The notes beneath the pieces are model-generated. The model was given only the letters and a program-made list of their open reading frames with translations, ran no database searches and was not told where the DNA came from. The position numbers were made by a program, and so were the translations under genes. Shown piece after piece: positions 10,318 to 37,227 of a stretch of 64,000 nt of DNA (the stretch's first letter is position 1; every line of letters begins with the position of its first letter). Location of the stretch: contig NZ_FNFM01000002.1 in assembly GCF_900101095.1 (NCBI RefSeq), forward strand, positions 124,001-188,000, in the 5' to 3' direction. The stretch comes from Actinopolyspora mzabensis. Lineage in GTDB: Bacteria > Actinomycetota > Actinomycetes > Mycobacteriales > Pseudonocardiaceae.

Positions 10318-10419
10318 GCGGGTTCTCGCGTGCGGCTCTCGCGAGGACGCCGGAGACGTTGTGTAGATCGCTACCCGATGTCTCCGGACCCGCAGCGAGA
10401 ACCGTGCGCGAGGTTCCGC
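10318..10419 (+). repeat. R2 repeat, copy A
   Basis: This 102-bp element is shared with 16959-17058 and 37127-37227. An inner 8-bp stem (CCGGAGAC at 10350-10357 with GTCTCCGG at 10380-10387) caps a GTAG/CTAC apical pair. The outer arms GGCTCTCGC and GCGAGAACC pair with one mismatch. It ends about 30 bp before the 3' end of hadB, on the opposite strand. Confidence 0.85.
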
Positions 10420-10448
10420 CAAGCGAGCACTTACGCCGACCGAGCGGC

Positions 10449-10871
10449 TCAGGAAATGCGCACCAAGGCGTAGGCGCCGCCGAGTACGCCCTGGTTGGCG
10501 CACTTCGCGGTGATGTTGATCTTCGCGGTGCCGTCCTCACCGACGTCGGCGACCTTCCCGGAGAGCTCCACCGTGGCCCCCTGCCCGTCGTCGGGAACCT
10601 CGACCGGGCGAGTGAACCGGACCCCGTGTTCGATGATCCGCCCTGGGTCACCCAACCAGTCGGTGACCAACCTCGTGGCCAACGCCATGGTGAGCATGCC
10701 GTGCGCGATCACCTCCGGAAGACCTACTTCCCGGGCGAACGTGTCGCTGTGGTGAATCGGGTTGAAATCCCCCGAGGCCCCCGCGTAACGCACCAGATCC
10801 GTCCTGGTGATCGAAACGCTGGACTCGGGCAGCCGGTCGCCCTTCGCGACCGACGACAGTGTCGTCGTCAC
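10449..10871 (-). CDS. hadB: (3R)-hydroxyacyl-ACP dehydratase subunit HadB
   Basis: This is the catalytic MaoC-like subunit of the FAS-II type 3-hydroxyacyl dehydratase. The 140-residue protein has the hydratase-2 motif SGDFNPIHHSDTFAREVGLPEVIAHGML at about 33-60, with catalytic Asp35 and His40. The GTG start at 10871 overlaps the hadA stop codon (GTGA), which fixes it and indicates translational coupling. HadA and HadB form a heterodimer in which HadB supplies the active site. No hadC follows, so this is the general actinobacterial pair rather than the mycolate-specific set. The same fold in other contexts acts on enoyl-CoA. Confidence 0.92.
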   Translation of the reverse strand: MTTTLSSVAKGDRLPESSVSITRTDLVRYAGASGDFNPIHHSDTFAREVGLPEVIAHGMLTMALATRLVTDWLGDPGRIIEHGVRFTRPVEVPDDGQGATVELSGKVADVGEDGTAKINITAKCANQGVLGGAYALVRIS

Positions 10872-11332
10872 GCCTGCTCTCCCTCCTCGGCCGTGCCACG
10901 CGCCACCAGCGTGGACGTGGCGGTACACACCGGCTCTCCCTCGGCCGTGCCGATCTCGGCACGCACGGTGAGGAAGTCGTTGCCCGCCCGCGCCTTGATG
11001 TCGTCCACGTGGGCAACGGCCACCAGCACGTCCCCGGCACGAATCGGCCGGTGGTGCCGAAACGCCTGGTGTCCGTGCACGACGCGGCTGTAGTCCAGCC
11101 CCAGCTGTTCGTCCTCGACCACGGCTTCCTGCGCCAGCACGGACAACCGCATCGCGAACGTGGGCGGAGCGATCACGTCCGGGTAACCGGCGGCCTTGGC
11201 GGCCTCGGTGTCGCGGTACAACGGCGACTCGTCCTTGATCGCCTCCGCGAATTCGCGAATCTTCTCCCGCGCGACCTCGTAGGGGGCGCTGGGCGGGTAC
11301 TCACGTCCGATGAATCCTTCGTCGAGCGGCAC
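10868..11332 (-). CDS. hadA: (3R)-hydroxyacyl-ACP dehydratase subunit HadA
   Basis: This is the non-catalytic, substrate-binding partner of HadB (MaoC N-terminal dehydratase family). I place the start at GTG 11332, giving a 154-residue protein beginning with the family pattern VPLDEGFIGREYPPSAPYEV. Upstream in-frame sequence runs through the rpmG terminator and is unlikely to be coding. The stretch AAGYPDVIAPPTFAMRL, expected in HadA, is present at about 47-63. The stop overlaps hadB by 4 nt. The start lies only 24 nt after an intrinsic terminator, so the pair depends either on readthrough from rpmG or on a promoter close to that hairpin. Confidence 0.9.
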   Translation of the reverse strand: MPLDEGFIGREYPPSAPYEVAREKIREFAEAIKDESPLYRDTEAAKAAGYPDVIAPPTFAMRLSVLAQEAVVEDEQLGLDYSRVVHGHQAFRHHRPIRAGDVLVAVAHVDDIKARAGNDFLTVRAEIGTAEGEPVCTATSTLVARGTAEEGEQA

Positions 11333-11355
11333 AACCCGCAGGTTACCGCAGTACG

Positions 11356-11392
11356 AAAAGAAACCCGCCCCGGCGGGAGCCGGAGCGGGTTT
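11356..11392 (-). terminator. Intrinsic terminator between rpmG and hadA
   Basis: On the minus strand AAACCCGC and CCGGC arms pair with GCCGG and GCGGGTTT (11361-11392), with a single bulge, followed by CTTTT. It is a strong classical terminator for rpmG placed very close to the hadA start. Confidence 0.75.
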
Positions 11393-11561
11393 CCCGAGTC
11401 CTCTCGACCCATGGTCGAGACGCCCAATCACCGAAGCGGTAAGGAGACTTCCCGAAAAGGTTGTCGACCCTGACACCGCTCAGCCGAGTCCGGCCGAGTG
11501 GTTCCGGGGACACCCTTCCGCGAGCGATCCCGCGTCGAACCCCGAAGGGTTCGGCGAGAAC

Positions 11562-11732
11562 TCAGCGGGTCTCCTTGTGCTCGCGGTGAGCATTGCAACG
11601 CGGGCAGTGCTTCTTCAGCGACATGCGATCCGGGTCGTTGCGGCGGTTCTTCTTGGTGATGTAGTTGCGTTCCTTGCACTCTTCACACGCAAGAGTGATC
11701 TTGGGGCGAATATCGGTGGGCGTCTTAGCCAC
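11562..11732 (-). CDS. rpmG: 50S ribosomal protein L33
   Basis: This 56-residue large-subunit protein begins at GTG 11732, reads [20 protein letters not shown], and ends HREHKETR. Two cysteine pairs, CEEC near 16-19 and CPRC near 43-46, make it the zinc-binding (C+) form. It follows tRNA-Thr and tRNA-Met and precedes hadA, the same order as the Mycobacterium rpmG2 locus. It is short and starts with GTG, so it is easily missed by automatic calling. Confidence 0.95.
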
Positions 11733-11832
11733 GGGGAGACCTCTCTCTCGTGTCTGGAACCGGACGAGGCTGCCGTCCGGTTCACTCCACGTGTATACCG
11801 CCCCGGGCCGGGCGGCATCTCAGCCGCAGGAG

Positions 11833-11904
11833 TAGCGGTGGCCGGATTCGAACCGGCGACACAACGATTATGAGCCGTTTGCTCTGCCCCTGAGCTACAC
11901 CGCC
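11833..11904 (-). tRNA. tRNA-Met (CAT), elongator
   Basis: The 72-nt minus-strand sequence pairs GGCGGTG with CACCGCT in the acceptor, with G-T as first pair and discriminator A. The anticodon loop CTCATAA carries CAT. It lacks initiator features such as the three G-C pairs in the anticodon stem. It lies between tRNA-Thr and rpmG. Confidence 0.93.
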
Positions 11905-11986
11905 TCGCGGACATCCGCTGGTACACAGTACCTTCACAAGACAGCCGCAGCACCCAGTTTAACCGAGTGCCGCGGCCGCCCTACAG

Positions 11987-12059
11987 AGCCCCAATACGGA
12001 CTCGAACCGTAGACCTTCGCCTTACCATGGCGACGCTCTGCCGACTGAGCTATTGGGGC
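11987..12059 (-). tRNA. tRNA-Thr (GGT)
   Basis: The 73-nt minus-strand sequence pairs GCCCCAA with TTGGGGC in the acceptor. The anticodon stem TCGCC/GGCGA closes a loop ATGGTAA with anticodon GGT, and the T loop is TTCGAGT. The 3' CCA is not encoded. Confidence 0.95.
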
Positions 12060-12153
12060 GTGCCCTCGCGGAGCGATTACTACTCTACACAACATCCGCA
12101 CCGCCGCCGCACCGGGGGTGACTTTTGGTATATCCGCAGGTCAACAACGCTCT

Positions 12154-12174
12154 GGAGCTCTCGGGGTGAGCTCC
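12154..12174 (-). terminator. Hairpin after the EAL-protein gene
   Basis: GGAGCTC (12154-12160) pairs with GAGCTCC (12168-12174) around a 7-nt loop, about 73 nt beyond the stop of the minus-strand gene. It has no T-tract, so this is a weak candidate. Confidence 0.35.
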
Positions 12175-12246
12175 TCCCACGACCAGGAAGACCTCGACCG
12201 AGCGCTCGGACAACCCGCTCGGAGGCCCCCGATCAGTTGAGCCTGA

Positions 12247-14904
12247 TCAGTTGACCCGAAGCACCGTCTCACCCAACTCCGGAGCCCCCTTCGGGTATTC
12301 CCGCGTGGTCCGCGCCCACAGCCACGACTCGAACCGCTCCTCGGAGAGCGGCCGGGAGATGAGATAGCCCTGCGCGGTGTCGCACCCCATCCGCACGAGC
12401 TGATCCCTGGCGGCGTCGTCCTCGACCCCTTCCGCGACCACACTCAGCTCCAGCGAGTGCCCCAGCTCGACGATGGAACGCACCACCGCCATATCGCTGA
12501 GATCGGTCCCCATGCCGAGCACGAAGCTCTTGTCGATCTTGACCTCGTCGACCGGAAGCTGCCGGAGGTACGCCAGCGAGGAGTAGCCCGTTCCGAAGTC
12601 GTCGACCGCAAGCACCACGCCCAGCGCCCGGAGTCTGCGCAGCACCGGCAACGAGCGGTCCGGATCGGCCATCACGCTGGACTCGGTCAGCTCGAAGGTC
12701 AACAGCCCCGGCGGCACGTCGTGCCGATCGAACGCCTCCCGCACCCGCTCGGGAAACGTCTCGTCGGCGAGGTTGCGCACCGAGAGGTTGACGGCCACCG
12801 AGAGCCGCAGCCCCCGATCGAGCCAATCCCGGATACGGATCAACGCCCGTTCCAGCACGAACTCGGTGAGCGCGTCCACCAGCCCGGTGGCCTCCACGAC
12901 AGGCACGAACTCGTCCGGTGAGAGGCGCCCGTACTCCGGATGCGACCAGCGCACCAGCGCCTCGGCGCCGACGATGCGCTTACCGGGCAGCGCGACCTTG
13001 GGCTGGTAGTGCACCTCGATCTGACCGCTCTCCAGCGCCTGCCGGAACTGGGTCACCAGTTGGAAGCGCCGCAGGAAGATCTGCCCCATGCTCGGGACGT
13101 AGCCCCGCACGCCGTCCTCACCGCTGCGCGCGGCGCGCACCGCCACGTCGGCACGTTGCAGCAGCACGTCCACATCGCCCGCGGTGTCCTCCTCCGCCGG
13201 GACGGAGGAAACGTAACCGGCCACGGCCGTGGCCTCCACCACCAGCTTGTCGAGTGGATAGGGCTCGGCTATCAGCTCGCGTAGCGCGCCGGCGATCTCC
13301 GCGGCCTGCGCCTCGGTGTGCCCCTGCAGCAGCACCGCGAAGGAGTTCGCCTCCAACCGTGCGACCGGCACGTGCGCCCCGAGGTACTCGCGCATCCGCC
13401 TGCCCGCCGCGACGATCATGCGGTCACCCCAGGCATAGCCGAGCGCCTCGCTGACCGTGGTGAGCAGTTCGAGATCGACGCGCAGCACCACGGCGGTGCT
13501 CTCCTGCAACGCCTCCGCGGACATCTCGCGGAAACCGGTGCGGTTGAGCAACCCGGTGAGCGGATCGTGGTAGGCATCGTGCCGCAACCGGGCCAACAGC
13601 CTGCGGTTGTCCATCGCGGTGGCCAGATGACTCGCGAGGGTGTGCAGCAGCCTGATGTCGGCGCGGCCGAATCCGCGCCACCGACTCACTCTGTCGTGCA
13701 CCTCGATGGCACCCAGCAGCTGGTTCGTACCGCGCAGCGGCACGACCAGGGCCTCGTGCGCCGCCCTGCGGTTCAGCGCCACGCGGATCTCCTCCGGAGC
13801 GTCGACGCTGCGGAAGGAACGAACGTGTGTCCCCGGCAGTTGCAACAGCGAGCACTCGCGCAGCAGCGTCGCCCCTTCGGTGCTCATCTCCTCCGGCTGC
13901 GGGCTGCCCGCCACCAGGGTGCTGACCTCTCCCCTGGGGTCCAACGAGAGGCGCAGCACCACACGAGTGGCGTTGAGCTGCTCCCTGATCCGTTCGGCCA
14001 CCGGTTCCCACTCGTCGATCGAGACCTGTTCACCGATGGCGCTCACGGCAGGAGCATCCGAATCGGACAGAACTCGTGACGCGTGCTGTCCGGAACGTGC
14101 GACCCGCAGACTCACGTCGCTGAGCGCCTCCAGGTCGCGCTGTTCGCGCAGCAACCCGGAGTAGGCGCGGTAGAGCGCCAGCACACCGACCATGAGCACC
14201 GTCACCAGCGCCCAACCCCACTGGGTGTTGACCGCGAGTTCGTATCCGACGAGCCCGATGGAGGTGTTCAGCAGCCCGACGACGAGGGTGCGACCACCGA
14301 GCAACAGCCCCGCGGAAACGCGCATTCCGTTGCCCAGCGCGTACAGCGCGGCCACGGCACAACCACAACTGATCAACGAGGAGCTGACGGCGCCGATCCC
14401 GGCGCAGAACCAGAGCGGCACCACGCCACCGAGCGCATCGCGACACACGCCCGCGATCAGGAAGGGGATCGCGATCTCCCAGCACAGCACCCCGGCGTTG
14501 TAAGCCACGTGACTGGCCGCGCGTTTGCGTACCTGTATCGCCAGTCCCGCGACGAGGTTGGCCGCCAGCACCACTTCGAACGGTGCGGTCAGCAGCCCGA
14601 GGATGAGCGGGATCTCGGTGAAGGAGATGGTCCAGCCGACCCGCTTGGCGTCCACGTCGATCGTGAGTTGCTCGGCCAGCAGGAACCCGACCGCCAGCAG
14701 CGGGCCGATGAACAGCAGATCGGGATTCCGCGGGAAGGGCAGCCACAGTGCTACCAGCAGCGAGACGAGCATTCCGCTCAGCAGCACGGAAAACGAGAAT
14801 CCCAGGAAGATGCGTCGCCTTCGCGGCGACACTTCGGACCGAACCGGAGGGCGGGGAACATCGGCGGTCAACCCCGGCTCCGAAGAGCGGTGATGCTCGA
14901 TCAT
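12247..14904 (-). CDS. Membrane GAF-GGDEF-EAL protein, probable c-di-GMP phosphodiesterase
   Basis: This 885-residue membrane protein should control cyclic di-GMP. About eight hydrophobic segments at 31-245 form a MASE-like sensor, followed by a GAF-like region (about 300-435) and a GGDEF-fold domain (about 440-605). The GGDEF active-site loop is replaced by LEANS at 517-521, so cyclase activity is unlikely. The EAL domain (about 612-865) is intact: EAL at 648-650, ELTES at 738-742, DDFGTGYSS at 768-776 and VAEGVE near 823. The start at ATG 14904 has GGGAGGAG five nt upstream. A TTG six codons earlier would place that ribosome site inside the gene. Confidence 0.9.
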   Translation of the reverse strand: MIEHHRSSEPGLTADVPRPPVRSEVSPRRRRIFLGFSFSVLLSGMLVSLLVALWLPFPRNPDLLFIGPLLAVGFLLAEQLTIDVDAKRVGWTISFTEIPLILGLLTAPFEVVLAANLVAGLAIQVRKRAASHVAYNAGVLCWEIAIPFLIAGVCRDALGGVVPLWFCAGIGAVSSSLISCGCAVAALYALGNGMRVSAGLLLGGRTLVVGLLNTSIGLVGYELAVNTQWGWALVTVLMVGVLALYRAYSGLLREQRDLEALSDVSLRVARSGQHASRVLSDSDAPAVSAIGEQVSIDEWEPVAERIREQLNATRVVLRLSLDPRGEVSTLVAGSPQPEEMSTEGATLLRECSLLQLPGTHVRSFRSVDAPEEIRVALNRRAAHEALVVPLRGTNQLLGAIEVHDRVSRWRGFGRADIRLLHTLASHLATAMDNRRLLARLRHDAYHDPLTGLLNRTGFREMSAEALQESTAVVLRVDLELLTTVSEALGYAWGDRMIVAAGRRMREYLGAHVPVARLEANSFAVLLQGHTEAQAAEIAGALRELIAEPYPLDKLVVEATAVAGYVSSVPAEEDTAGDVDVLLQRADVAVRAARSGEDGVRGYVPSMGQIFLRRFQLVTQFRQALESGQIEVHYQPKVALPGKRIVGAEALVRWSHPEYGRLSPDEFVPVVEATGLVDALTEFVLERALIRIRDWLDRGLRLSVAVNLSVRNLADETFPERVREAFDRHDVPPGLLTFELTESSVMADPDRSLPVLRRLRALGVVLAVDDFGTGYSSLAYLRQLPVDEVKIDKSFVLGMGTDLSDMAVVRSIVELGHSLELSVVAEGVEDDAARDQLVRMGCDTAQGYLISRPLSEERFESWLWARTTREYPKGAPELGETVLRVN

Positions 14905-15319
14905 CCACGCTCCTCCCGCCAAGCGACCCGTTTCGTGGTCGCGTTACTCAGCGTCGATCGTGACGCACGACAACCCTGCTTGACCAGTCTTCGATTGGTG
15001 CCATCGTGGATGGACCATCGAGCAGATTACTAAATCCCACCACTGAATGTGGCCGGTTCATCCTCCGAAGTAAACGGAAAGATCAGCAAGCGCCACCCGG
15101 CGCACCGGGAAACGGAACCAGCAAGAGATCACGCACAGCAACCGAGAACCGCTGTGAACCTTGCCGCAGCAACCCACGGGAACAGGCACGGTACGTGTCG
15201 AGACGAGACTTTCGGTAACAATCGCCCTCCCGGCGCTCGCCGCTGGTGTTGCCCACCGTCCAGCGGAACGCGGAGCGCACCGGCCCGTTTCCACGTGCTG
15301 CCCGCTCCGGGGCGGGCCG
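14905..15319. other. Spacer, no gene recognised
   Basis: This lies between the start of the EAL-protein gene and the 3' end of the hydrolase gene, both on the minus strand. It should hold the promoter of the EAL gene near its left end and perhaps a terminator for the hydrolase. No open frame with plausible start and composition, and no repeat, was found. Confidence 0.5.
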
Positions 15320-16306
15320 TCAGTGCGGTATCCGGAACTCCTCGAAGAAGTACCCCACCGCCCGGTCCAGTTCGGCCAGTGCGGATTCAGCTCTGGGCAT
15401 GTGTCCGGAGCCGGGCAGCGGCACCGAGCGTTTCGGCGCGTTCAACCGACCCAGGAAGCGTTCGGAACGCACCCCCGGAGTCCAGCGGTCGGCCTCGGGA
15501 GAGGCCAGCAGCACCGGTGGCGCGGTGAAGTTCGCGGGCGAAACGGCGGGCGGTAGCCGTAGGTAACTCCGGAACAGCCGCAGCGGGATCGTGGTGGCAC
15601 CGCCGAGTTCGTCGGCGGCGTAGACGGCGGCGAACCGCGCGTTGTCGGAAACCGCGGTGATGTCGAGCAGCCGGTGCAACGGAACCCGGTGCGAAACGGG
15701 AAACATCGGCGCCCGTGCCAACGCCTCGGCCAACAGCCCCGCGCCGGGGTTGGCAACCAGCCCGCCCCGCACGTCCGGGCTACGCGGATCGGCCAGGCTG
15801 GTTACGACCAGCGCCGCCACTCGGTCCGGCACCCTGGCGGCGACCTGGTAGGCCAACCAGCCGCCCAGCCCCAGCCCGAACAGCACCACCGGCCGACGGT
15901 CCGCCACGCGCTCGGCCGCGATCAGGTCGATCACGCAGTCCACCCAGTGCCGGTAGGTGAGGTGGTAACCGACCGCGGGACTCAACCCGTGCCCCGGCAG
16001 GTCCGGGGCCAAACACTCCAGCCCGCTCAGCGCGGGCAACCTGGCGTAGGGCGCCAGCATCCTGCCGTAACCGCCTATACCGTGCAGCATCAGGAGTTTG
16101 GCCGCCGCGTCGTCCCGCCGGACGACGTCCAGGTGCAGCGGAGCACCGCGCCAGGACCACCGGTGTTCGGTCGGCGAATTCGTGGTGGTGCTGCGCAGCG
16201 CACCGGGGAAGAATTCCTGGTAGCGCAGCCAGTGCGTGTGCTCCAGATAGCCGGGGGCGGCTTCGGCCGAACCGATGGGAGACCTGGCTCGCGAACCCGA
16301 GAACAC
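15320..16306 (-). CDS. Alpha/beta hydrolase
   Basis: This is an alpha/beta-hydrolase-fold protein of about 328 residues. The oxyanion region LLMLHGIGGYGRM is followed by LAPDLPGHGLSPA. The nucleophile elbow reads GLGLGG, so the usual Ser/Asp/Cys nucleophile is not in its normal place. The histidine GSGHMPRAE is present near the C-terminus. Loss of the nucleophile suggests either a non-hydrolytic member or an unusual mechanism. The start is uncertain. GTG at 16306 avoids overlap with the divergent gene, while an ATG at 16336 would overlap the neighbour's own ATG by two bases. The substrate is unknown. Confidence 0.75.
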   Translation of the reverse strand: MFSGSRARSPIGSAEAAPGYLEHTHWLRYQEFFPGALRSTTTNSPTEHRWSWRGAPLHLDVVRRDDAAAKLLMLHGIGGYGRMLAPYARLPALSGLECLAPDLPGHGLSPAVGYHLTYRHWVDCVIDLIAAERVADRRPVVLFGLGLGGWLAYQVAARVPDRVAALVVTSLADPRSPDVRGGLVANPGAGLLAEALARAPMFPVSHRVPLHRLLDITAVSDNARFAAVYAADELGGATTIPLRLFRSYLRLPPAVSPANFTAPPVLLASPEADRWTPGVRSERFLGRLNAPKRSVPLPGSGHMPRAESALAELDRAVGYFFEEFRIPH

Positions 16307-16334
16307 ATTACGAACATACGGAGCGAATCGCCCC

Positions 16335-16760: not shown

Positions 16761-16810
16761 CGGCGAACTGACTGCGAACTGACGGGGAGCGCACCGGACC
16801 GGCGACGCAA

Positions 16811-16900
16811 ATCTCCCACGAAATCGCCGCGTTGCTGGGCGAGGTTCACGGTGCGCATGGGTTGGTTCCCCGCGCGGCGGGCGTCAATTTCCCACGAAAT
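16811..16900. repeat. P palindrome pair 2
   Basis: ATCTC-CCAC-GAAAT (16811-16824) and ATTTC-CCAC-GAAAT (16887-16900) have starts 76 bp apart in the spacer downstream of the F420 oxidoreductase. The right-hand copy carries the same GCGTCA prefix as the right-hand P copies at 10.2 and 36.9 kb. Confidence 0.75.
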
Positions 16901-16958
16901 CGCGGCGCCGCTTCGGCACTCCCGGCGCCGAAGCACCACGCACGGACTCGGCACCGCG

Positions 16959-17058
16959 GCGGGTTCTCCCGTGCCGGCTCTCGCGAGGAAGTTTCGATGT
17001 TGTGTGTGGCTACCCGAGGTCGGGCCTGCCGCAGCGAGAGCCGTGCGAGAGGTTCCGC
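16959..17058 (+). repeat. R2 repeat, copy B
   Basis: This 100-bp element is related to 10318-10419 and 37127-37227. The outer arms GGCTCTCGC and GCGAGAGCC pair perfectly over 9 bp. The inner stem is reduced to about 4 bp (CGAT/GTCG), so this is the most degraded of the three copies. It lies between convergent genes. Confidence 0.8.
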
Positions 17059-17205
17059 GACAGCACCACCGACGAAACGAGCACTGCTGCGGATTCGAAG
17101 GCGTCCCGCGCTCAACCGGCCTGGGGGTCACCGGGAGCGCGGGACGCGTAATCGACACTACTGATCGGGCGTGCCTGCTGTCGAGTCACCGATGGGCCGG
17201 GTCAC

Positions 17206-28841: not shown

Positions 28842-28847
28842 CAAGTT

Positions 28848-29678: not shown

Positions 29679-31439
29679 TCACCCGAATATCGACATTCGG
29701 ACCCACTCCATCGCCTCGCTGAAATTGTTGGTCACCCCGACTGCGTCCAGCTCACTGGCCCACTTGCGCCGCGCGGGCGTGACCCGTGCCACGTAGAAAA
29801 CCACGGGTCCCTTGTAGATGTTCTGGTCCCGCAACGCCTGAACATCCTGCAGCCCGGAATCATCGACCCCGTACCGGTTGATATCGGAGACGATTATGTC
29901 CGGAACTCTGCCACGTATGGCCCGTTTCATCGACTCGAAGTCACTGGCGGTGTCCACCTTCGCACCCCATCCCCGCAGGGTGGTGACGATTCTTCCGGTG
30001 TCGGAGAACTCACCGTTCTTCTCCGCGAAGACGTCGTCCACGACGAGTGCGTACCCACCCTGCATGTCGGTGTGCTCGCCCGGCAGCCGTTCCTCGGCGT
30101 CGGCGATCCCGCCCGGGTCGAACCGAAACCGCCGACGTTGCAAGTGTTGCCGCAAGTGATCGAAGCGCGAGGACTCCTTCAGCTGACGCAGCGTGGTGGT
30201 GAACACTTCATCGCTGACAAGCCTGGGGAAGGACTCCGGAAGCTGCTGCTCCAACTGCCCGAGATAGTCGCGAAGTACGTCCCGGTCCACGTTCTCGCCA
30301 GGTGGCTCGATCTTGTGGTTCTTGAAGACGTTCCGCCACGATTCAGGGTTTATGCCGCCCATGTTGATGTTTTCGCGAGCATCGTGGTATTCCAGGAATT
30401 CCTGGACGGGATCCTCGGTCTCGGAGCTGGTCAGCAGTCTGTAGAACACCGGATAGAAGTGCTGCAGCAGCAGGACTCTTACCAGGATTTTCGCGCCGAA
30501 CTCCTGCCATTCCTTGTCCAGGTGGTATTCGAGCACGAAACTGTTGATCAGCCTCTTGATACGCCGCGGATTGCGCCCGGTCCGCTCGGCCACGAAGTTC
30601 AGTACGTGTTCGTCGAAGAACTGCGAGGTACCCGACCTCGAGGCGTAACCGTTGACCAGGTCACGCACCTGCCGCTGCCCCGGCTGGGGCGAGTGGTAGT
30701 TCACCTGGACGATCTTCTCCAGATACCCGGCAGGGTGAGCGCCCGCGATGTCCGCCTGCTGGATGCTGCGGTTGAGAGCGGACTGATCACAGCCGATGAC
30801 GAACACCAGTCCCGGCACATCCAGGTAGAGCTTGATCGCCTCGCAGACGGTCACCACCACATCATGCCGACAACGATCCAAGTCATCGACGAAGACGACG
30901 ATCTGCTTCCCCGCCGAGTTCGCCGAGTTCACCCACTCCTGGGCCATGTCCCTCACCGCGCCCCGAATCTCGTTGCGCGACTTCGGATCCACCGAAAGCT
31001 GGGCCCAGAGTTCGTCCACCAGCCGTCGAAGGCCGAACGTGGTCATCGCGAGGCGGAATCCGATACGAAGCCACCTCGACAGCCGTGGCGCTCCGGCAAC
31101 CCTGTGGTAAGCCCTGCGCACGATATTGCGATCGAAACGCAGCAGCACGGACTTGATCAGGACCTCCAAGGCGTCGGATCCCGAGGTCCAGGCGTTGAAC
31201 CAAGCCGTCTGCACCCCTTCCGTCCCGTCCAGTCGAAGCTGCAGTTGCCGCATGAGACTGCTTTTTCCCATGCCCCAGCCGGCATCGATCGCGAGCGTGA
31301 ATGGAGTGGAGTCCCGCGAGGAGACGATCAGATCGGAGAGCCTGTCGGCGGTCTCACTCGTACCGAGCAGATCCTCCCCGTGCTCGCTCACCGGCTCGTC
31401 GTTGAGAACGACGAAACGCTCGTCCGCCGACGGTTGCAC
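29679..31439 (-). CDS. KAP-type P-loop NTPase with C-terminal receiver-like domain
   Basis: The 586-residue protein begins with a KAP NTPase domain. Walker A AGWGMGKSS lies at 53-61 and Walker B VVFVDDLDR at 181-189. The KAP sensor region NPRRIKRLINSF is at 290-301. A middle helical region (about 310-445) follows. The last 125 residues look like a response-regulator receiver: LVVDD at 465-469, an acidic residue D519 in DIIVSDI, and GPVVFYVA where the conserved Thr/Ser strand lies. The conserved Lys is not evident, so phosphorylation is doubtful. The KAP insert has a hydrophobic stretch (about 124-140). GTG 31439 follows AGGAGAGG. No partner gene is adjacent. KAP NTPases occur in anti-phage and membrane-associated systems, but the role here is unknown. 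Confidence 0.85.
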   Translation of the reverse strand: MQPSADERFVVLNDEPVSEHGEDLLGTSETADRLSDLIVSSRDSTPFTLAIDAGWGMGKSSLMRQLQLRLDGTEGVQTAWFNAWTSGSDALEVLIKSVLLRFDRNIVRRAYHRVAGAPRLSRWLRIGFRLAMTTFGLRRLVDELWAQLSVDPKSRNEIRGAVRDMAQEWVNSANSAGKQIVVFVDDLDRCRHDVVVTVCEAIKLYLDVPGLVFVIGCDQSALNRSIQQADIAGAHPAGYLEKIVQVNYHSPQPGQRQVRDLVNGYASRSGTSQFFDEHVLNFVAERTGRNPRRIKRLINSFVLEYHLDKEWQEFGAKILVRVLLLQHFYPVFYRLLTSSETEDPVQEFLEYHDARENINMGGINPESWRNVFKNHKIEPPGENVDRDVLRDYLGQLEQQLPESFPRLVSDEVFTTTLRQLKESSRFDHLRQHLQRRRFRFDPGGIADAEERLPGEHTDMQGGYALVVDDVFAEKNGEFSDTGRIVTTLRGWGAKVDTASDFESMKRAIRGRVPDIIVSDINRYGVDDSGLQDVQALRDQNIYKGPVVFYVARVTPARRKWASELDAVGVTNNFSEAMEWVRMSIFG

Positions 31440-31756
31440 CTCTGTCCTCTCCTAACAGCGATTTCCACTGGTTCATCTCGGAGTGATGAGATCCTCCGTG
31501 CCGTGTCGCCCCCGAGCTCCCGTCAACGACGGCGAGCCGTGCCGCACCGGTTTCCCGGTTCGCCCCGGCGAGGTATCGACGCACTCCGTGCTGCCGCACT
31601 GGCCGCTGAAGCACCCTGTCTCACCCCGATCCGATCCCACATCCGCATCGGATACATGCTCGCAGCCAGTACTACCGCTCGTGTCGAGAACAGCGACTTC
31701 CGTGCACGGACCGAACCGCGCTCCGGCGCACGGTTCGACGGATCCGGAGACAAGGA

Positions 31757-31796
31757 ACCGCCCCCCCCGTCCCGTCTCCGCGGGTCAGGGGGCGGT
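31757..31796 (-). repeat. Diverged copy of the tRNA-Tyr terminator hairpin
   Basis: ACCGCCCCC (31757-31765) pairs with GGGGGCGGT (31788-31796). The same hairpin, in the same position relative to tRNA-Tyr sequence, lies at 35120-35157. This copy has lost the flanking T-tract. Confidence 0.75.
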
Positions 31797-31809
31797 CTAC
31801 TCGGGGTTG

Positions 31810-31854
31810 TGCCGGGTAGCGGATTCGATCCTCTGTAGCGCTTTCGCGCGGCTG
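31810..31854 (-). pseudogene. tRNA-Tyr 3'-half remnant (att-like)
   Basis: On the minus strand this matches the variable arm, T arm and acceptor 3' strand of the intact tRNA-Tyr at 35169-35249. It includes an identical acceptor strand ACCCGGC and a T loop ATCGAAT. The T stem now has a mismatch (AGAGG against CCGCT), and the D and anticodon arms are missing, so it cannot be functional. It is in the same orientation as the intact gene and 3.36 kb from it. Confidence 0.8.
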
Positions 31855-32010
31855 TTTTGCATTCCTCGGGTGATCGCTGCCTACGTAGAAGGCTGAACCA
31901 CTCAGACGACTCCGGTACGGCGTCAGTGAGATCGCCTTGTACGCGCGTGTTCGCCCAGGATGGGATAGGCGTCGCGGCGTAGTAGGCACCGCCGGCCTGT
32001 TCACCTGTCG

Positions 32011-32499
32011 CTAGGTCTGGTTGAGGGCGTCGCGAATGAGAGTCATCGCCTCCAGCAGCGCGTTCTGCTGGTCGGCGCTCAGTGGACTGGTGGTACGTCG
32101 TTCGAGTTCGGCCCATGCGGCGCGCGCTCTGGGAACGGTTTCACGGCCGTGGTCCGTCAGCACGACGGTCGTCGCCCGCTTGTCGGTTGGGGAGGAGGTG
32201 CGGGTCACCAGGTCGGCCCGTTCCATCGCCTGCAACGTGACCGTGACGGTCGAGCGATCCCGCCCCAGGTAGTGGACGAGTTCTGTCTGTGGGACCGGAC
32301 CGTGCTCATCGAGGTACAGCAGAACGATTTCGTGTGGTGAGGCCACGCCTGCTTCCTGCAGCAGCGCGGTGCCTACCCGGGCGTGCGCGCGGGTGACTTG
32401 AAGGAGCAATGAACCAACGGGCGCGCCGTCGATGCTGGTACCGACGTGCCGTCGAGGTTCGGCTTCCGGGGCGGACCGCTGCTGGGAGGAGTGCACCAC
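32011..32499 (-). CDS. MarR-family transcriptional regulator
   Basis: This 162-residue winged-helix regulator has the MarR core with LLQVTRAHARVGTALLQEAG and SPHEIVLLYLDEHGPVPQTELVHYLGRDRSTVTVTLQAMERADLVTRTSSPTDKRATTVVLTDHGRE, including the wing DKRATTV. It presumably represses the divergent MFS exporter and itself. The 54-bp gap between the two starts contains two related inverted repeats (32518-32535, 32548-32561). It lies in the tRNA-Tyr-bounded islet. The ligand is unknown. It starts at ATG 32499, or possibly a few codons later. Confidence 0.92.
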   Translation of the reverse strand: MVHSSQQRSAPEAEPRRHVGTSIDGAPVGSLLLQVTRAHARVGTALLQEAGVASPHEIVLLYLDEHGPVPQTELVHYLGRDRSTVTVTLQAMERADLVTRTSSPTDKRATTVVLTDHGRETVPRARAAWAELERRTTSPLSADQQNALLEAMTLIRDALNQT

Positions 32500-32517
32500 T
32501 GGGACAGCCTATTGGGT

Positions 32518-32535
32518 TTGTTGGCACGCCAGCAA
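32518..32535. promoter_or_regulatory. Candidate MarR operator 1
   Basis: TTGTTGGCACGCCAGCAA is an 18-bp imperfect inverted repeat (TTGnTGGC...GCCAnCAA) in the MarR/MFS intergenic gap. Confidence 0.55.
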
Positions 32536-32547
32536 TTAGCTACGATC

Positions 32548-32561
32548 GTTGGTATGCCAAC
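32548..32561. promoter_or_regulatory. Candidate MarR operator 2
   Basis: GTTGGTATGCCAAC has 5-bp inverted arms and shares the TTGG...CCAA core with the site 25 bp upstream. It covers the ATG of the MFS gene, where bound repressor would block initiation. Confidence 0.5.
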
Positions 32562-34110
32562 ATTCCGGCTCGCGCCCGGCCCTCCGAACTCGGAGGGGAT
32601 CGATCCGCAACTGCGGCGGATCATGGGCGTGCTCCTCGTGGGCGCGAGTGTGGCGCTGCTGGACACCACCATCATCGGCGTCGCCATCGACGGTCTCTCC
32701 CAGGACTTCGACACCTCGGTAGCCACGACCCAATGGGTCACCACCGGTTACGTGCTGGCGATGGTCGCGGTGATCACGACGATGGGCTGGTTGACCGACC
32801 GATGGGGGTGCCGACGGGTCTGGCTGGGCGCGGTGGGGGTCTTCCTAGTGGGCTCGGTGCTGTGTTCGGTGGCATGGTCGATCGGGACGCTCATCGCGTT
32901 CCGGATCGTGCAGGGGCTCGGTGGAGGCCTGATTCTGCCGCTCGTACAGGCGATCCTCGCCCGTGCGGCAGGTCCCCACCGGGTTGGCCGCGTCATGGGC
33001 TACGTCGGAATCCCCGGCCAACTGGCGCCGATCCTCGGGCCGGTCCTCGGGGGGCTGCTACTGGCAACCGCGGGGTGGCGGTGGATCTTCCTCAGCAACA
33101 TCCCGATATGCCTGCTGGCTCTCGTCGTCGCCCACCGCCACCTCGCCGACGACGAGCCGCGCACACCGGCCCGGCTGGACCGCGGCGGGCTGCTGCTCCT
33201 GCTCCCGGCCACCGTGGCCATCCTGTGGGGGTGCACGGCGAGCACCGAGCAGACGATGGCCCCCGCACCGGCACCGCTGATGCTCGGCTTGGGAGTCGCC
33301 CTCGTGGGCGCATTCTGGCTCCACGCCCGTCGCCTCGGACACCAAGCCCTGCTCCACGTCGGACTGCTCCGGCAACGGACCTTCGGTGTCGCGACCTTGA
33401 TGATGCTGCAGTTCGGCTTCTCGCTCTACGGCAGCCTGATCCTGTTACCGCTGTTCTATCAGCGGGTCCACGAGGTCGAGGTGGGCGATGTCGGACTACT
33501 GCTCGCACCGCAGGGCCTGGGCACCATGGCCGCGCTGGGGCTCGCCGGACGGTGGAGCCACCGGCTTGGCCCGCGCCTCCTCGGCGTCCTCGGAACCCTC
33601 ATGTCCATAGCCGGCACGACGGGGCTCGCGATGACCGGCGCCTCCGCCGCCACGCCCACGCTCTCCCTATGCCTACTGCTGCTCGGAGCCGGTTTCGGCG
33701 CTACCGGCGTCGCCGTCTCAAGCGCTGCCTACCGCGACGTCCCTCCAACCTCCGTCCCGCACGCCACCAGCCTGCTGAACGTCGTGCAACGACTCGGCGC
33801 GGCTCTCGGAACCACCGTGATGGCGATCATTCTGCAACTGAACCTCGCCAATTCGAGCCTCGCCGACAGCGATACCGCTGCGGGGTTCTCGCACACGTTC
33901 TGGTGGGCCGCCACCTTCGCGACGGCGACTCTCATCTCCGCTGCCCGCCTTCCTGCCCGTCCAGCGGGCTCCGACCATCATTCGCACCCCACGAAAGGAC
34001 TTGACACGTGCGCGCCATCGTCGTCGACCAACCCGGGGGCCCCGAGGTGCTCCGACCGACCACGCTGCCCGACCCCGTCCCCGGAGCCGGACAGGTCCGA
34101 ATCGCCGTAG
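32554..34110 (+). CDS. MFS drug exporter (EmrB/QacA, DHA2-type)
   Basis: This 518-residue, 14-span major facilitator exports small hydrophobic or cationic compounds by proton antiport. Motif C-like and DHA2 features include LLDTTIIGVAIDGLSQDF, WVTTGYVLAMVAVITTMGWLTDRWGCRRVW, and FRIVQGLGGGLILPLVQAIL. The start at ATG 32554 lies within the second MarR operator. The last 35 residues or so are low-complexity and overlap the next gene by 103 nt in another frame. The real C-terminus may have been lost by a small frameshift. It lies divergent from marR, a standard drug-resistance layout. Confidence 0.9.
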   Translation: MPTFRLAPGPPNSEGIDPQLRRIMGVLLVGASVALLDTTIIGVAIDGLSQDFDTSVATTQWVTTGYVLAMVAVITTMGWLTDRWGCRRVWLGAVGVFLVGSVLCSVAWSIGTLIAFRIVQGLGGGLILPLVQAILARAAGPHRVGRVMGYVGIPGQLAPILGPVLGGLLLATAGWRWIFLSNIPICLLALVVAHRHLADDEPRTPARLDRGGLLLLLPATVAILWGCTASTEQTMAPAPAPLMLGLGVALVGAFWLHARRLGHQALLHVGLLRQRTFGVATLMMLQFGFSLYGSLILLPLFYQRVHEVEVGDVGLLLAPQGLGTMAALGLAGRWSHRLGPRLLGVLGTLMSIAGTTGLAMTGASAATPTLSLCLLLLGAGFGATGVAVSSAAYRDVPPTSVPHATSLLNVVQRLGAALGTTVMAIILQLNLANSSLADSDTAAGFSHTFWWAATFATATLISAARLPARPAGSDHHSHPTKGLDTCAPSSSTNPGAPRCSDRPRCPTPSPEPDRSESP

Positions 34111-34970
34111 AGGTCGCCGCGATCACCTTCATCGACACCCAGATACGCTCCGGAAGCTCGATCGGTCCCCGGATCGAGTTCCCGGCCGTACTGGGCAACG
34201 GTGTCGGTGGGTACGTCGATGCGCTGGGAGAGGACGTCGACCCCGCGTGGAAGAACACCCTGGTCGTGACCTCCACCGGCGGCACCGGGGGTTACGCCGA
34301 CCAGGCTGTGGCCCGAGTGCCCGACCTCCACCGGGTTCCCGACCCCCTGGGAGCACGGGAAGCGGTCACCTTGCTCGCCGAGGGGCGCACCGCCGTAGGG
34401 CTCAACGCCGCAGCGAAAATCGAAGACGGGGACGTCGTGGTGGTCACCGCTGCCGCTGGGGGAGTCGGCGGTCTTCTCGTCCAGCTCGCCGCCACCGCAG
34501 GCGCCCGCGTGATCGCACTCGCAGGCTCCGACTCGAAGGTGGAGCACGCGCGGGCTCTTGGCGCCGACACCGGGGTGAATTACCGCGCCCCCGAATGGGC
34601 CTCGGCACTGCGGGAGGCTGCACCCTCCGGAGTTGATGTCGTGTTCGACGGCGTCGGTGGCACCACCACCGACGCCCTTCACCCGCTGGTACGACGAGGC
34701 GGACGATACGTCGCGCACGGAGCCGCCAGCGGCACCTGGGCAAGCCCCGACGAGCAGGCCACCTCGCGCGGGATCACCCACATCGGCCTGGACGCGATCG
34801 GCGGTACCCCCGGCAGCCTCCACGACCTCGTCGAGGAAGCCCTTGCCCTGGGATCAACGAAGAGTCTGCGACCCACCATCGGGCAGACCTACCCCCTCGA
34901 AGCTGCGGCGCGAGCCCATTCCGACATCACCGCCCGCACCGTGATCGGAAAAACCCTACTCATCCCGTGA
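34008..34970 (+). CDS. NADPH:quinone oxidoreductase (zinc-independent MDR family)
   Basis: This 320-residue medium-chain dehydrogenase/reductase resembles QOR/crotonyl-CoA-reductase-like enzymes. It has the N-terminal GroES-like domain (ITFIDTQIRSGSS) and the nucleotide-binding loop TAAAGGVGGLLVQLA near 147-161, with AGSDSKVEHARALGAD following. It lacks the catalytic zinc ligands. A role in reducing a quinone or enone exported or resisted by the MFS pump would fit the operon, but is an inference. The GTG at 34008 follows AAAGGA at 8 nt and overlaps the MFS frame. Confidence 0.88.
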   Translation: MRAIVVDQPGGPEVLRPTTLPDPVPGAGQVRIAVEVAAITFIDTQIRSGSSIGPRIEFPAVLGNGVGGYVDALGEDVDPAWKNTLVVTSTGGTGGYADQAVARVPDLHRVPDPLGAREAVTLLAEGRTAVGLNAAAKIEDGDVVVVTAAAGGVGGLLVQLAATAGARVIALAGSDSKVEHARALGADTGVNYRAPEWASALREAAPSGVDVVFDGVGGTTTDALHPLVRRGGRYVAHGAASGTWASPDEQATSRGITHIGLDAIGGTPGSLHDLVEEALALGSTKSLRPTIGQTYPLEAAARAHSDITARTVIGKTLLIP

Positions 34971-35115
34971 TCAGGGAACTTCCCGCCTCCGACGACGGGG
35001 AGCATGAGCCTCGGGGGAGCCCGCATAGACCGATCCTCGGGCTGAGGCCGTGGTCAGCCATCGGCCGGCGAGAGCCGGGAGGGCTCGGGGAGTTTCGGGT
35101 ACCACCGGGTACACG

Positions 35116-35157
35116 AAAAACCGCCCCCTGCCCTGTCTGTGCAGGTCAGGGGGCGGT
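35116..35157 (-). terminator. Intrinsic terminator of tRNA-Tyr
   Basis: On the minus strand an 11-bp stem (ACCGCCCCCTG at 35120-35130 with CAGGGGGCGGT at 35147-35157) is followed by a run of T (35120-35116). It lies 12 nt after the tRNA 3' end. Confidence 0.8.
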
Positions 35158-35168
35158 GTTCCCAGTTG

Positions 35169-35249
35169 TGCCGGGTAGAGGATTCGAACCTCTGAAGCTT
35201 GCGCGGCTGATTTACAGTCAGCTCCCTTTGGCCGCTCGGGCAACCCGGC
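35169..35249 (-). tRNA. tRNA-Tyr (GTA)
   Basis: This 81-nt class II tRNA pairs GCCGGGT with ACCCGGC in the acceptor, with discriminator A. The anticodon stem GCTGA/TCAGC closes a loop CTGTAAA with GTA. It has a long variable arm, and its T stem AGAGG/CCTCT closes TTCGAAT. The 3' CCA is not encoded. A partial copy at 31810-31854 suggests it has served as an integration site. Confidence 0.96.
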
Positions 35250-35368
35250 TAATCAGCCATCCGCTGTTGGCTTGTACCAAAATCATACATACCGGCACCC
35301 GCACTCACGTAAGGGGGTCCGGGTAGCGTATTCGCTCACCACAACAGCCCACGTGAGGAGTTTCCGAC

Positions 35369-35860
35369 ATGGCGGACCCGTCGTTCGACGTAGTGAGCAA
35401 GGTCGACCGGCAGGAGGTGGACAACGCACTCAACCAGGCTGCCAAGGAACTCGCGAACCGGTTCGACTTCAGGGGAACCGACACGAAGATCAGTTGGTCC
35501 GGCGAGGAGGCCGTGACCCTGGAGTCCGAGACCGAGGAGCGATGCAAGGCCGCGGTCGAGGTCTTCAAGGAGAAACTGGTCAAGCGGGGCGTCTCACTGA
35601 AGGCGGTCGAACTGGGCGAACCGGTCAGATCGGGCAAGGTCCACCGGGTCTCCGGCACCCTCAAGCAGGGGATCGCGCAGGAAACGGCCAAGAAGATCTC
35701 CAAGAAGATCCGCGACGAGGCACCCAAGGGAGTGCAGGCGCAGATCCAGGGCGACCAGTTGCGGATCTCGGGCAAGAAGAAGGACGATCTGCAGTCCGTG
35801 ATCTCGCTACTGAAAAGCAGTGATTTCGACGTGGCGTTGCAGTTCGAGAACTACCGTTGA
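35369..35860 (+). CDS. yajQ: YajQ-family nucleotide-binding protein
   Basis: The 163-residue protein (UPF0234/DUF520) has two ferredoxin-like subdomains. It starts [43 protein letters not shown] and ends with the conserved [26 protein letters not shown]. Members bind nucleotides, and some bind c-di-GMP and affect transcription. The M. tuberculosis relative lies near htpX and grcC1, and here too htpX and the polyprenyl synthase are close by. It starts at ATG 35369, with a clear GAGGAG upstream. Confidence 0.95.
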
Positions 35861-35938
35861 GCGGGTGCGGGGACGGGCCCGCTCGCGGGGTGATCGCGCC
35901 GCACGCAAAGCACTCTTAACCGTCGACGGGAGAGCTCG

Positions 35939-36838
35939 TTGAAGGGAATCGTGTTGGCCGGGGGCAACGGCACGCGGCTGCACCCGGTCACCCAGGTGGT
36001 GTCCAAGCAGCTTCTCCCGGTCTACGACAAGCCGATGGTGTACTACCCGCTCTCGGTGCTGATGCTGGCCGGGATCCGCGACATCCTGCTGATCTCCACT
36101 CCCGAGGACCTTCCACTGTTCCGCCGCCTGTTCGGCGACGGCAGCAGCCTCGGGCTGCGCATCGAGTACGCGACCCAGACCGAGCCCAACGGGCTGGCCG
36201 AGGCGTTCCTGATCGGCGCCGACTTCATCGACGACGACTCGGTGGCGCTCGTACTGGGCGACAACATCTTCTACGGTCAGGGATTCTCGAAACTGCTGCA
36301 GCGCAGCACCACCGAGCTGCAGGGCTGCACACTGTTCGGCTACTCGGTGCGCAATCCGCAACGCTACGGCGTGGGCGAGACCGACGGTGCGGGCAGACTT
36401 GTCTCGCTGGAGGAGAAACCCGCCGTCCCCCGCTCCAACAAGGCGATCACCGGCCTCTACCTCTACGACAACGAGGTGGTCGAGATAGCCCGTACGCTGC
36501 GCCCGTCCAGCCGGGGCGAGCTGGAGATCACCGACATCAACACGACGTACCTCGAGCGGGGTCGTGCGCACCTGATCGAGCTGAATCGCGGTTACGCCTG
36601 GCTGGACACGGGCACGCACGAGTCGCTGCTGGAAGCGGGGCAGTTCGTGCAGGTGCTGGAACACCGCCAGGGAGTGCGCATCGCCTGCCTGGAGGAGATC
36701 GCGCTGCGCATGGGGTACATCACGCCCGAGGAGTGTCACGAGTTGGGGTGGCGGCTGTCCAAGTCCGGTTACGGCCAGTACGTCATGGAGATCGCCGAGG
36801 CGATTGCCGGACGGAAGTTGAACGCCGGAGCCGAGTGA
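35939..36838 (+). CDS. rfbA: Glucose-1-phosphate thymidylyltransferase
   Basis: This enzyme forms dTDP-glucose from glucose-1-phosphate and dTTP, the first step to dTDP-rhamnose and other deoxysugars for the cell envelope. The 299-residue protein starts MKGIVLAGGNGTRLHPVT with the nucleotide-binding GGNGTRLHP. It continues with VYDKPMVYYPLSVLMLAGIRDILLIS, LGDNIFYG, GRAHLIELNRGYAWLDTGTHESLLEA and the C-terminal EECHELGW regulatory segment. The start appears to be TTG 35939 after GGGAGAG. It follows yajQ by 78 nt. Other dTDP-rhamnose genes are not in the window. Confidence 0.95.
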   Translation: MKGIVLAGGNGTRLHPVTQVVSKQLLPVYDKPMVYYPLSVLMLAGIRDILLISTPEDLPLFRRLFGDGSSLGLRIEYATQTEPNGLAEAFLIGADFIDDDSVALVLGDNIFYGQGFSKLLQRSTTELQGCTLFGYSVRNPQRYGVGETDGAGRLVSLEEKPAVPRSNKAITGLYLYDNEVVEIARTLRPSSRGELEITDINTTYLERGRAHLIELNRGYAWLDTGTHESLLEAGQFVQVLEHRQGVRIACLEEIALRMGYITPEECHELGWRLSKSGYGQYVMEIAEAIAGRKLNAGAE

Positions 36839-36860
36839 GTCGGCTCCGCCCCGGTTGTAG

Positions 36861-36928
36861 CGATTTCTCGCGAAATCGCCCCGCCAGTGCGGCGTGGTGG
36901 CCCCGTGGGCGTCAATTTCTCGCGAAAT
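36861..36928. repeat. P palindrome pair 3
   Basis: CGATTTC-TCGC-GAAATCG (36861-36878) and ATTTC-TCGC-GAAAT (36915-36928) have starts 54 bp apart downstream of rfbA. The left copy is a perfect 18-bp hairpin. Confidence 0.85.
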
Positions 36929-36994
36929 CGTCGCCCACGCGGGACCGCGGTCGGGACTGCACCATGCGGCTGAGCAGCGCGGGTGTCCCCGGTG

Positions 36995-37061
36995 CTTGAG
37001 TCGGATGCATTGCAAGGCCGGGCCGCTCGCCGCGTAGGTCGCTACTCAAGAGCCGGCCCGA
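36995..37061 (-). repeat. R1 repeat, partial copy
   Basis: This keeps one end (CTTGAGTCGG, one change from the terminal inverted repeat) and the GGGCCG/CGGCCC core, but lacks the other end. From about 36987 to 37059 it matches 37287-37359 with one difference, exactly 300 bp further on. Confidence 0.85.
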
Positions 37062-37126
37062 CGTCGCCTCGCGTCCTCTTTGGTGCTCCCAGCGCCGAAA
37101 CCACCACCAGAGCAGCCCGACCACCC

Positions 37127-37227
37127 GCGGGTTCTCCCGTGCGGCTCTCGCGAGGACGGCCCCGACGTTGTGTAGTACCTACCCGATGTCGGGGCACCCG
37201 CAGCGAGAGCCGTACGAGAGGTTCCGC
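37127..37227 (+). repeat. R2 repeat, copy C
   Basis: In this 101-bp element the outer arms GGCTCTCGC and GCGAGAGCC pair perfectly. The inner 7-bp stem (CCCCGAC at 37160-37166, GTCGGGG at 37188-37194) differs in sequence from copy A but still pairs. A GTAG/CTAC apical pair is present. Confidence 0.85.

Follow-up and report, generated by a model that had tools for sequence, protein, structure and literature searches.

The R2 hairpin of Actinopolyspora mzabensis as the probable core of a MITE-like element

Introduction

A hairpin repeat, R2, occurs three times between genes in the 64,000 nucleotides of Actinopolyspora mzabensis analysed here (contig NZ_FNFM01000002.1, positions 124,001 to 188,000; the window), and the question is whether such a repeat is an RNA, a part of the genes beside it, or something that moves. 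The earlier note on this DNA had seen a structured repeat with compensatory changes and had set a mobile element aside. No description of R2 was met in our literature search, which covered mostly papers outside subscription.

Copies in the window and in other genomes

The R2 copies and the elements of a sister family, R1, which has a like hairpin tip, are as follows (bit scores are those of the R2 covariance model).

10258..10451, + strand, R2 copy A with conserved flanks; left limit approximate, right limit includes the stop codon (TCA on +) of a hadB-like gene
10318..10419, + strand, R2 copy A, hairpin core; 117 bits, -70.1 kcal/mol
16959..17058, + strand, R2 copy B, hairpin core, inner stem decayed; 77 bits, -53.8 kcal/mol
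37127..37227, + strand, R2 copy C, hairpin core; 116.5 bits, -73.3 kcal/mol
10006..10116, - strand, R1 element; 35 nt to the aminotransferase gene stop codon
36984..37066, + strand, R1 element, truncated
37284..37394, + strand, R1 element; 32 nt to the M48 peptidase gene stop codon
41264..41373, - strand, R1 element; 34 nt to the stop codon of gene 40781-41230

All three R2 copies were found where they had first been placed, and aligned with 40 bp of flank per side they have a mean column identity of 81%. Folding of the + strand gives one long hairpin for each, which shuffled sequences equalled in 0/200 (A), 1/200 (B) and 0/200 (C) cases; the fold is stable on both strands, with GTAG paired at the tip. 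The length of 100 bp first given is right for the hairpin, about 100 nt, but the conserved unit is larger, its flanks being kept between roughly -58 and +26 relative to the hairpin. The inner stem does pair with different letters in copies A (CCGGAGAC/GTCTCCGG) and C (GCCCCGAC/GTCGGGGC), as had been noticed, but copy B, with its decayed inner arms, lends this no support.

In copy A the model end of the hairpin and the stop codon of the hadB-like gene are 28 nt apart; in copy B, which has orthologous copies in genomes G004 and G007, a predicted stop codon is 146-148 nt from the 3' end of the hairpin. An R1 element separates copy C from the M48 peptidase gene, which puts the hairpin 197-198 nt from the stop codon of that gene, and G004 and G009 have the same arrangement without this R1. 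A single R1 insertion, beside an R2 in G004, suggests a repeat of 8 bases, GGGCCGAG.

Searching the window genome by BLAST gave at least 40 R2 places at 85-100% identity, among the best 40 of 187 candidates scored. R1 occupies at least 40 places in this genome. The covariance-model search of this genome and its relatives, which the earlier note had proposed, did find further copies: at least 125 distinct places in the window genome (134 rows, from the best 150 of 9267 candidates scored), and these 125 are the basis of the per-copy tallies below. Across the family Pseudonocardiaceae the model matches in 78/297 genomes and 15/46 genera, with 95, 95 and 90 matches in G002, G008 and G022. Spread beyond the family was rejected, since only 2/394 genomes of a class-wide draw match, the window genome and one other of the same family. 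Carriage on phages or plasmids was also rejected; one query around copy C gave no match at E 0.01. A scan for widely separated R2 halves, a possible autonomous form, listed scattered pairs.

Covariation and decay of the fold

The proposed check for covariation of the arms was positive over five genera. Among 22 copies (21 distinct) from five genera, 23 of the 43 pairs have changed on both sides, compared with 10.8 in shuffles, and the covariation score is 0.313 against 0.090, with 0/500 shuffles as high. The 32 copies taken from the window genome alone give a weaker picture, 6 pairs changed on both sides as compared to 4.7 (34/500 shuffles reach 6) and a score of 0.109 against 0.043 (0/500). 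Differences between source lineages and subfamilies account for most of the covariation, and there selection on the hairpin is probable. In the resident copies the picture is another: their 188 changed cells at 28 pairs comprise 13 compensated, 44 G-U, 45 A-C and 86 other, so that pairs are lost within one genome with no strand preference and almost no compensation. The covariation is therefore no proof that each copy works as an RNA, and as resident decay is blind to pairing, it is probably during movement of the element that the fold is maintained.

Whole elements in a related genus

The hairpin is not confined to a solitary repeat, and here the dismissal of a mobile element has to be reversed: in genomes of the related genus g42 this hairpin forms the core of an element of about 200 bp with inverted ends. 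Genome G299 has three near-identical whole elements (97-99% identity over 204-217 bp), and like elements with terminal inverted repeats are carried by G240 and G290. The whole element is about 204 bp, ends in CTAGGACGTGTTTTATAA and, reversed, CTAGGGCCTGTTTCGAAA in G299, and has CTAG or TTAG on both sides; around some elements the pair is unequal, CTAG/TTAG. The CTAG in G299 starts 37 nt past the hairpin, which is the place of the stop codon in Actinopolyspora. G240 has an identical 105-nt core between two kinds of ends.

One of the G299 elements splits an ArsR-like regulator gene. When its flanks are joined with one CTAG, an open frame results that matches HTH_20 at 4.8e-12. The site is unsplit in 9/21 other searched genomes of the genus, while in G299 it matches in two pieces with a 4-base overlap; the unsplit site reads CTCG or CTGG, not CTAG, in the six relatives that were read. 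G299 also has an insertion sequence (IS) of 938-940 bp with ends CTAGGGYCTGTTTCA, whose frames match DUF4096 and DDE_Tnp_1, an IS5-type transposase, and which has about 14 outermost bases in common with one element end. Judged by its sequence features, the g42 element belongs with the IS5-type MITEs: it has terminal inverted repeats, a CTAG/YTAR duplication, no transposase gene, and ends shared with an IS. The idea that the C-rich flanks of R2 are Rho-type signals was dropped once the whole elements were found.

Fourteen g42 elements passed the left-end motif filter. Joining the target gives a stop codon for 8 of them, including two that no longer have the hairpin. The end at the stop codon is the right one only in 4, the left one only in 2, and both in 2.

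Position relative to genes

The 3' end of R2 faces a stop codon in 102/125 copies of the window genome, 91 of them at 10-54 nt with a peak at 36-38 nt; the left side has no such peak in Actinopolyspora. A YTAR sequence lies at the stop codon of 16/88 R2-adjacent genes as compared to 16/360 others (p = 5.7e-5), and TGA, which is not a YTAR site, is the stop codon in 57/88. In thirteen orthologous gene groups the element next to the stop codon differs, and in some of them a new element lies between an older copy and the stop. Inspection by eye showed that some "absent" states, in G001 and G003, are old R2-like remnants too weak to be detected. In related species, a block with R1 and R2 has the opposite orientation.

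The ends of the Actinopolyspora copies are poorly preserved. The left, far end is mostly unrecognisable; with up to 3 mismatches its motif is seen in 9/125 copies and equally in 9/125 on the other strand, used as control (reversed pattern, 1/125). The right-end motif occurs in just 10/125, and one copy (C20:76467-76686) has both. No convincing partner end was found within 1.6 kb at 30 loci, of which 25 have TGA and one TAA, and no empty site carrying a duplication could be located within Actinopolyspora.

This placement could mean that R2 is a 3'-UTR element, a terminator, insulator or RNA-stabilising hairpin selected gene by gene, with its spread secondary. The tight spacing and fixed orientation in 91/125 copies, the 28-40 nt spacing in 5/8 copies of four other genera, the scarcity of copies between divergent genes (only 5/125) and the stability of the fold on both strands all agree with this. 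We nevertheless regard it as unlikely, because pair loss in resident copies is hardly ever compensated and shows no strand bias, 22/125 copies have the 3' end facing a start codon, copies vary between close species, and the g42 elements have the structure of a transposon. Around copy A (9900-10520, the region scanned) there were also 0 intrinsic terminators, that is, a hairpin followed by a T-run.

Other explanations

It is very improbable that R2 is a palindrome of the REP/REPIN type whose mobility comes from a RAYT (Y1) transposase. Like REP, BIME and REPIN sequences, as described in the available part of PMC3733652, R2 has many intergenic copies, in contact with stop codons and in mosaics with other palindromes. 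It is often at gene ends, and it carries GTAG in its tip. Unlike them it is larger, its GTAG is paired, and the whole g42 element has other ends, inverted and with CTAG on both sides; the identity was rejected when no Y1_Tnp match was found in the three copy-rich genomes (G002, G008 and G022).

If R2 were an independent, multi-copy small RNA gene, the covariation over five genera would be explained, and between lineages G-U cells do exceed A-C cells on the + strand (98 to 30). Most of the 98 fall at four pairs with a G-U consensus, however, and 21 of the 30 A-C cells are at one doubtful pair, whereas within the genome the two classes are equal. No sigma-70-like promoter was seen around copy A, the region scanned. 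At gathering score the only Rfam matches in the window are four tRNAs, which bears out the earlier view that R2 is not a tRNA and leaves it outside Rfam at that score; a permissive search at copy C gave no credible family, only hits to a microRNA model, of 25 and 17.8 bits where the gathering score is 268, and an Rfam identity was rejected. The small RNA gene is a highly unlikely explanation, and R2 is very likely a MITE-like core rather than a free RNA gene. An attC-like folded recombination site behind genes is hardly credible: there are conserved mismatches in a hairpin behind stop codons and an inverted R1 and R2 block in related species, but R2 is dispersed and not in arrays, and the attC core boxes were not seen.

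Discussion

R2 is, in our judgement, very likely the conserved hairpin core of a MITE-like, non-autonomous family of about 200-240 bp that depends on a transposase in trans. In the five genera tested it is a MITE-like element in which the core, as well as the ends, is kept by compensatory changes. The transposase may come from the IS5-type IS of G299 or a relative. The Actinopolyspora copies would descend from the same element as those of g42, and their left end would be decayed or of a different kind. In GC-rich genomes CTAG-like sites are usually scarce within genes, and an insertion at a stop codon would do little harm; the spacing of about 37 nt may thus mark the right end of the element, at a target site that was a stop codon. 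A palindromic target should bring either end to the stop codon, and the missing peak on the left side in Actinopolyspora counts against this. Selection on mobile source copies would keep the fold, and resident copies would drift.

The R2 element resembles MITEPsy1 of Pseudomonas syringae, an IS5-derived MITE with inverted ends of 18 nt, in being short and gene-free with inverted ends (PMC3189936, available part). A duplicated CTAG or related Py-T-A-Pu site is common to R2 in g42, to such MITEs and, in the accessible text of PMC5493358, to IS5. R2 differs from the IS5-derived MITEs, as described in those parts, in its 105-nt hairpin core, covarying arms and conserved internal sites, in its model matches in 15 genera, and in having the same core with two kinds of ends. 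The consulted portion of a review (PMC10969869) presents transcripts with stable stem-loops as typical of stem-loop forming MITEs, and we count this general trait as a likeness; no R2-like family was met in that portion, and the main text never uses "Actinobacteria", "Streptomyces" or "stop codon".

It is conceivable, though doubtful, that the core functions as a module in its own right and has been taken up repeatedly by different transposon ends, as a mobile 3'-end cassette. If so, it would set transcript ends or block transcription into the neighbouring gene, survival would favour one orientation, and R1 and R2 would represent two branches of this module, with a common tip. Genes would then gain, lose and swap ready-made 3' ends.

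As the core of a MITE-like element, R2 together with R1 accounts for a repeat load of at least 125 and at least 40 places in one 5-Mb genome. Its covariation seems to reflect selection in the mobile phase and not function at each site, which calls for caution in covariation-based RNA discovery. R2 also makes it possible to test whether transposable hairpins are suppliers of gene 3' ends.

The R2 hairpin and its covariation

The three copies of the intergenic repeat R2 lie in the window where the earlier note had placed them:

10318-10419, R2 copy A
16959-17058, R2 copy B
37127-37227, R2 copy C

Folding supports the hairpin claimed for them, every copy forming a single one of about 100 nt. The inner stem was said to differ between copies and still to pair, and this is true of A and C, while that of copy B is decayed. 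A repeat unit of about 100 bp is too short, as conservation reaches about -58 upstream and about +26 downstream of the hairpin.

The compensatory change read from these copies is borne out by 22 R2 copies (21 distinct), drawn from 12 genomes in five genera together with two named records. In this set 92.3% of the cells are paired, as compared to 79.1% after shuffling, and both sides have changed at 23 of 43 pairs (10.8 shuffled). The covariation score is 0.313, as compared to 0.090 shuffled and a maximum of 0.086 for slid versions. Across copies, that of A. xinjiangensis (L089) included, the outer arms have been replaced with pairing retained; the foot GCGGGTTCTC/GAGGTTCCGC stays constant, along with the internal loop and a large part of the tip.

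Copy number, range and position

R2 was proposed as a repeat to be sought in this genome and its relatives, and it is abundant there. BLAST with copy A gave 41 rows in the own genome, 40 of them full-length places (best 40 of 187 candidates scored), and a covariance model built from 32 copies gave 134 rows, or at least 125 distinct places (150 of 9267 candidates scored) after nine rows on the opposite strand of the same place were dropped. All ten genomes searched in the genus, which is Actinopolyspora as judged by the nearest named orthologues of the hadB-like neighbour gene, match, nine with at least 94-96 matches each (96 scored at most) and one with 3. In the family, which we take to be Pseudonocardiaceae, a model from the 22 copies, with the best 13 places at most scored per genome, found R2 in 78 of 297 genomes, spread over 15 of 46 genera. 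In a class-wide draw of 394 genomes it was present in two, the own genome and one more of the same family. The sister family R1, which has the hairpin tip in common with R2, occupies at least 40 places in the own genome (40 of 89 candidates scored); the R2 model matches the two whole R1 copies beside A and C weakly, with 28.7 and 28.5 bits.

The position relative to genes was read with a gene finder trained on own-genome stretches. In 102 of 125 copies the 3' end of R2 faces a stop codon, which in 91 of these lies 10-54 nt away, with the peak at 36-38 nt; in 22 copies it faces a start codon, in 15 of these at 39-88 nt. The 5' side of the same 125 copies is without a comparable distance peak. 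Convergent genes flank 56 copies, 44 stand between tandem genes running opposite to R2 and 16 between tandem genes running with it; the rest lie between divergent genes (5), at stretch edges (3) or overlapping a predicted gene (1). In four other genera the stop lies 28-40 nt from R2 in 5 of 8 copies, and at 36-58 nt in 5 of 9 further copies of genome G022. R1 follows the same rule, facing a stop in 16 of 20 copies, 15 of them at 27-44 nt.

A MITE-like element in a related genus

In the related genus g42, R2 forms the core of a MITE-like family whose ends are of IS5 type. Genome G299 of this genus has three copies with 97-99% identity across 204-217 bp, ending in CTAGGACGTGTTTTATAA and, reversed, CTAGGGCCTGTTTCGAAA, and flanked on both sides by CTAG or TTAG. 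Like elements occur in two other g42 genomes, G240 and G290 (213-229 bp, plus one of 263 and one of 431 bp), together with three of 97-122 bp that lack the hairpin. One G299 copy splits an ArsR-like gene, and joining the halves with one CTAG restores an open frame (HTH_20, 4.8e-12). When 21 other g42 genomes were searched, the joined site was matched over 300 or 304 of its 304 bases in eight of them, and a ninth had a 256-base match across the junction; G299 itself matches in two pieces with a four-base overlap. The unsplit site is CTCG or CTGG in the six relatives read. G299 also has elements of 938-940 bp with ends CTAGGGYCTGTTTCA and frames matching DUF4096 (5.1e-32) and DDE_Tnp_1 (5.7e-15), and are thereby IS5-family insertion sequences, of an IS427-like kind.

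Among the 14 g42 elements retained by a left-end motif filter, eight have a stop codon as their joined site, two of these eight being without the hairpin, and the end at the gene is the right one in four, the left in two and both in two. A 105-nt core is identical in five G240 copies, of which four have ends of the CTNA-GCCTGTCTT type and one a decayed CTAG type, so the core and its inner flanks are more stable than the ends.

We place the R2 of the window genome in the same MITE-like family by presumed descent, with ends that would be decayed or of another type. In G299 the CTAG starts 37 nt past the hairpin, which is the stop codon position in Actinopolyspora. YTAR, the IS5-type target, is found at the stop of 16 of 88 R2-adjacent genes and 16 of 360 others (p = 5.7e-5), and CTAG at 9 of 88 and 9 of 360 (p = 0.003), but TGA is the stop in 57 of the 88, which counts against this link. 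Allowing up to two mismatches, the right-end motif TCGAAGTTTTCCGSYCGG has 40 sites in the own genome, 44 in G009 (also Actinopolyspora) and none in the control. It immediately follows a TGA triplet, a putative stop codon, in 25 of 30 loci (15 per genome) and TAA in one, with an R2-like hairpin foot downstream in roughly half. It is present in 10 of the 125 own R2 copies and at both ends of one (C20:76467-76686); the left-end motif over the 125 is not above the other-strand control.

Turnover among Actinopolyspora genomes

In six Actinopolyspora genomes, compared over 0.18-0.22 Mb each, the element adjoining the stop codon varies in 13 orthologous gene groups, although the match-less entries G001_95, G001_124 and G003_107 look R2-like by eye, so part of this variation is decay below the detection limit. 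At the M48 peptidase gene of the window R2 lies at 38 nt in G004 and G009, while in the window genome, G003 and G007 R1 lies at 32 nt and R2 is pushed to 198-200 nt. Another locus has R2 in G004 and G009, R1 in G003 and G007, and no model match in the window genome, where the first bases past the stop resemble the R2 element right end.

Rearrangements were also observed. The whole R1 and R2 block at 9988-10420, between the aminotransferase and hadB-like genes (nearest named hadB-like orthologues A. alba, 95%, and A. righensis, 94%), has the opposite orientation in A. alba, A. righensis and G009; G003 is arranged as the window, and in G001 the R1 lies towards hadB. In the own genome, C14:88800-88903 consists of two R2 right halves, and at this locus G003, G004 and G009 carry a pair of R2 copies that point to opposite genes; it is probably a deletion between inverted copies. 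Among the 35 copies listed on contig C1 of G009, none lies within 0.013-1.64 Mb and the strand switches near 3.9-4.2 Mb, suggesting that the copies follow a core/arm and replichore pattern.

Other features of the window

Palindromes of the type GATTTCNCGNGAAATC, which we take to resemble a Noc/ParB-type site, are often paired, ~44-77 bp apart, beside R1/R2:

10155-10239, palindrome
about 16800-16905, palindrome
36842-36933, palindrome
41479-41586, palindrome
62834-62926, palindrome

The own genome has 138 such sites; G004, G007 and G009 have 161-169, G003 and G008 26-27, and the other 35 genomes 0-2; the reversed control gave 0. The 3' part of tRNA-Tyr (35168-35249) recurs, together with adjoining sequence, at a distance of 3.36 kb (31744-31839 and 35105-35249), an arrangement resembling the attachment-site pair of an integrated element. 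A tRNA-SeC called by ARAGORN (14560-14651) lies inside a GGDEF-EAL gene, has no Rfam match at gathering score and is probably false. A run of 15-bp units, e.g. TTCGGAACAGGGCCC, occupies 5378-5473.

Retention of the fold and of the orientation

Within the own genome the pattern is not that seen across genera. Decay of resident copies was counted over the 125 own-genome copies at the 28 Watson-Crick pairs that have a single fixed consensus, subfamily-defining pairs excluded. The changed cells, 188 of 3465, comprise 13 other Watson-Crick pairs, 44 G-U, 45 A-C and 86 other mismatches; with the subfamily-defining pairs the figures are 122, 61, 56 and 137. The equality of G-U and A-C gives no sign that resident loci maintain one strand as a folded RNA. 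Between lineages, on the + strand, G-U (98 cells) exceeds A-C (30 cells), the former being mostly at four consensus-G-U pairs and 21 of the latter at one doubtful pair. Most simply, the fold would be retained because source copies need it, either for moving or for being tolerated.

The right end at the gene is strongly favoured in Actinopolyspora and mixed in the young g42 elements, which suggests that one orientation survives. This is the main reason for keeping alive the reading of R2 as a 3'-end cassette.
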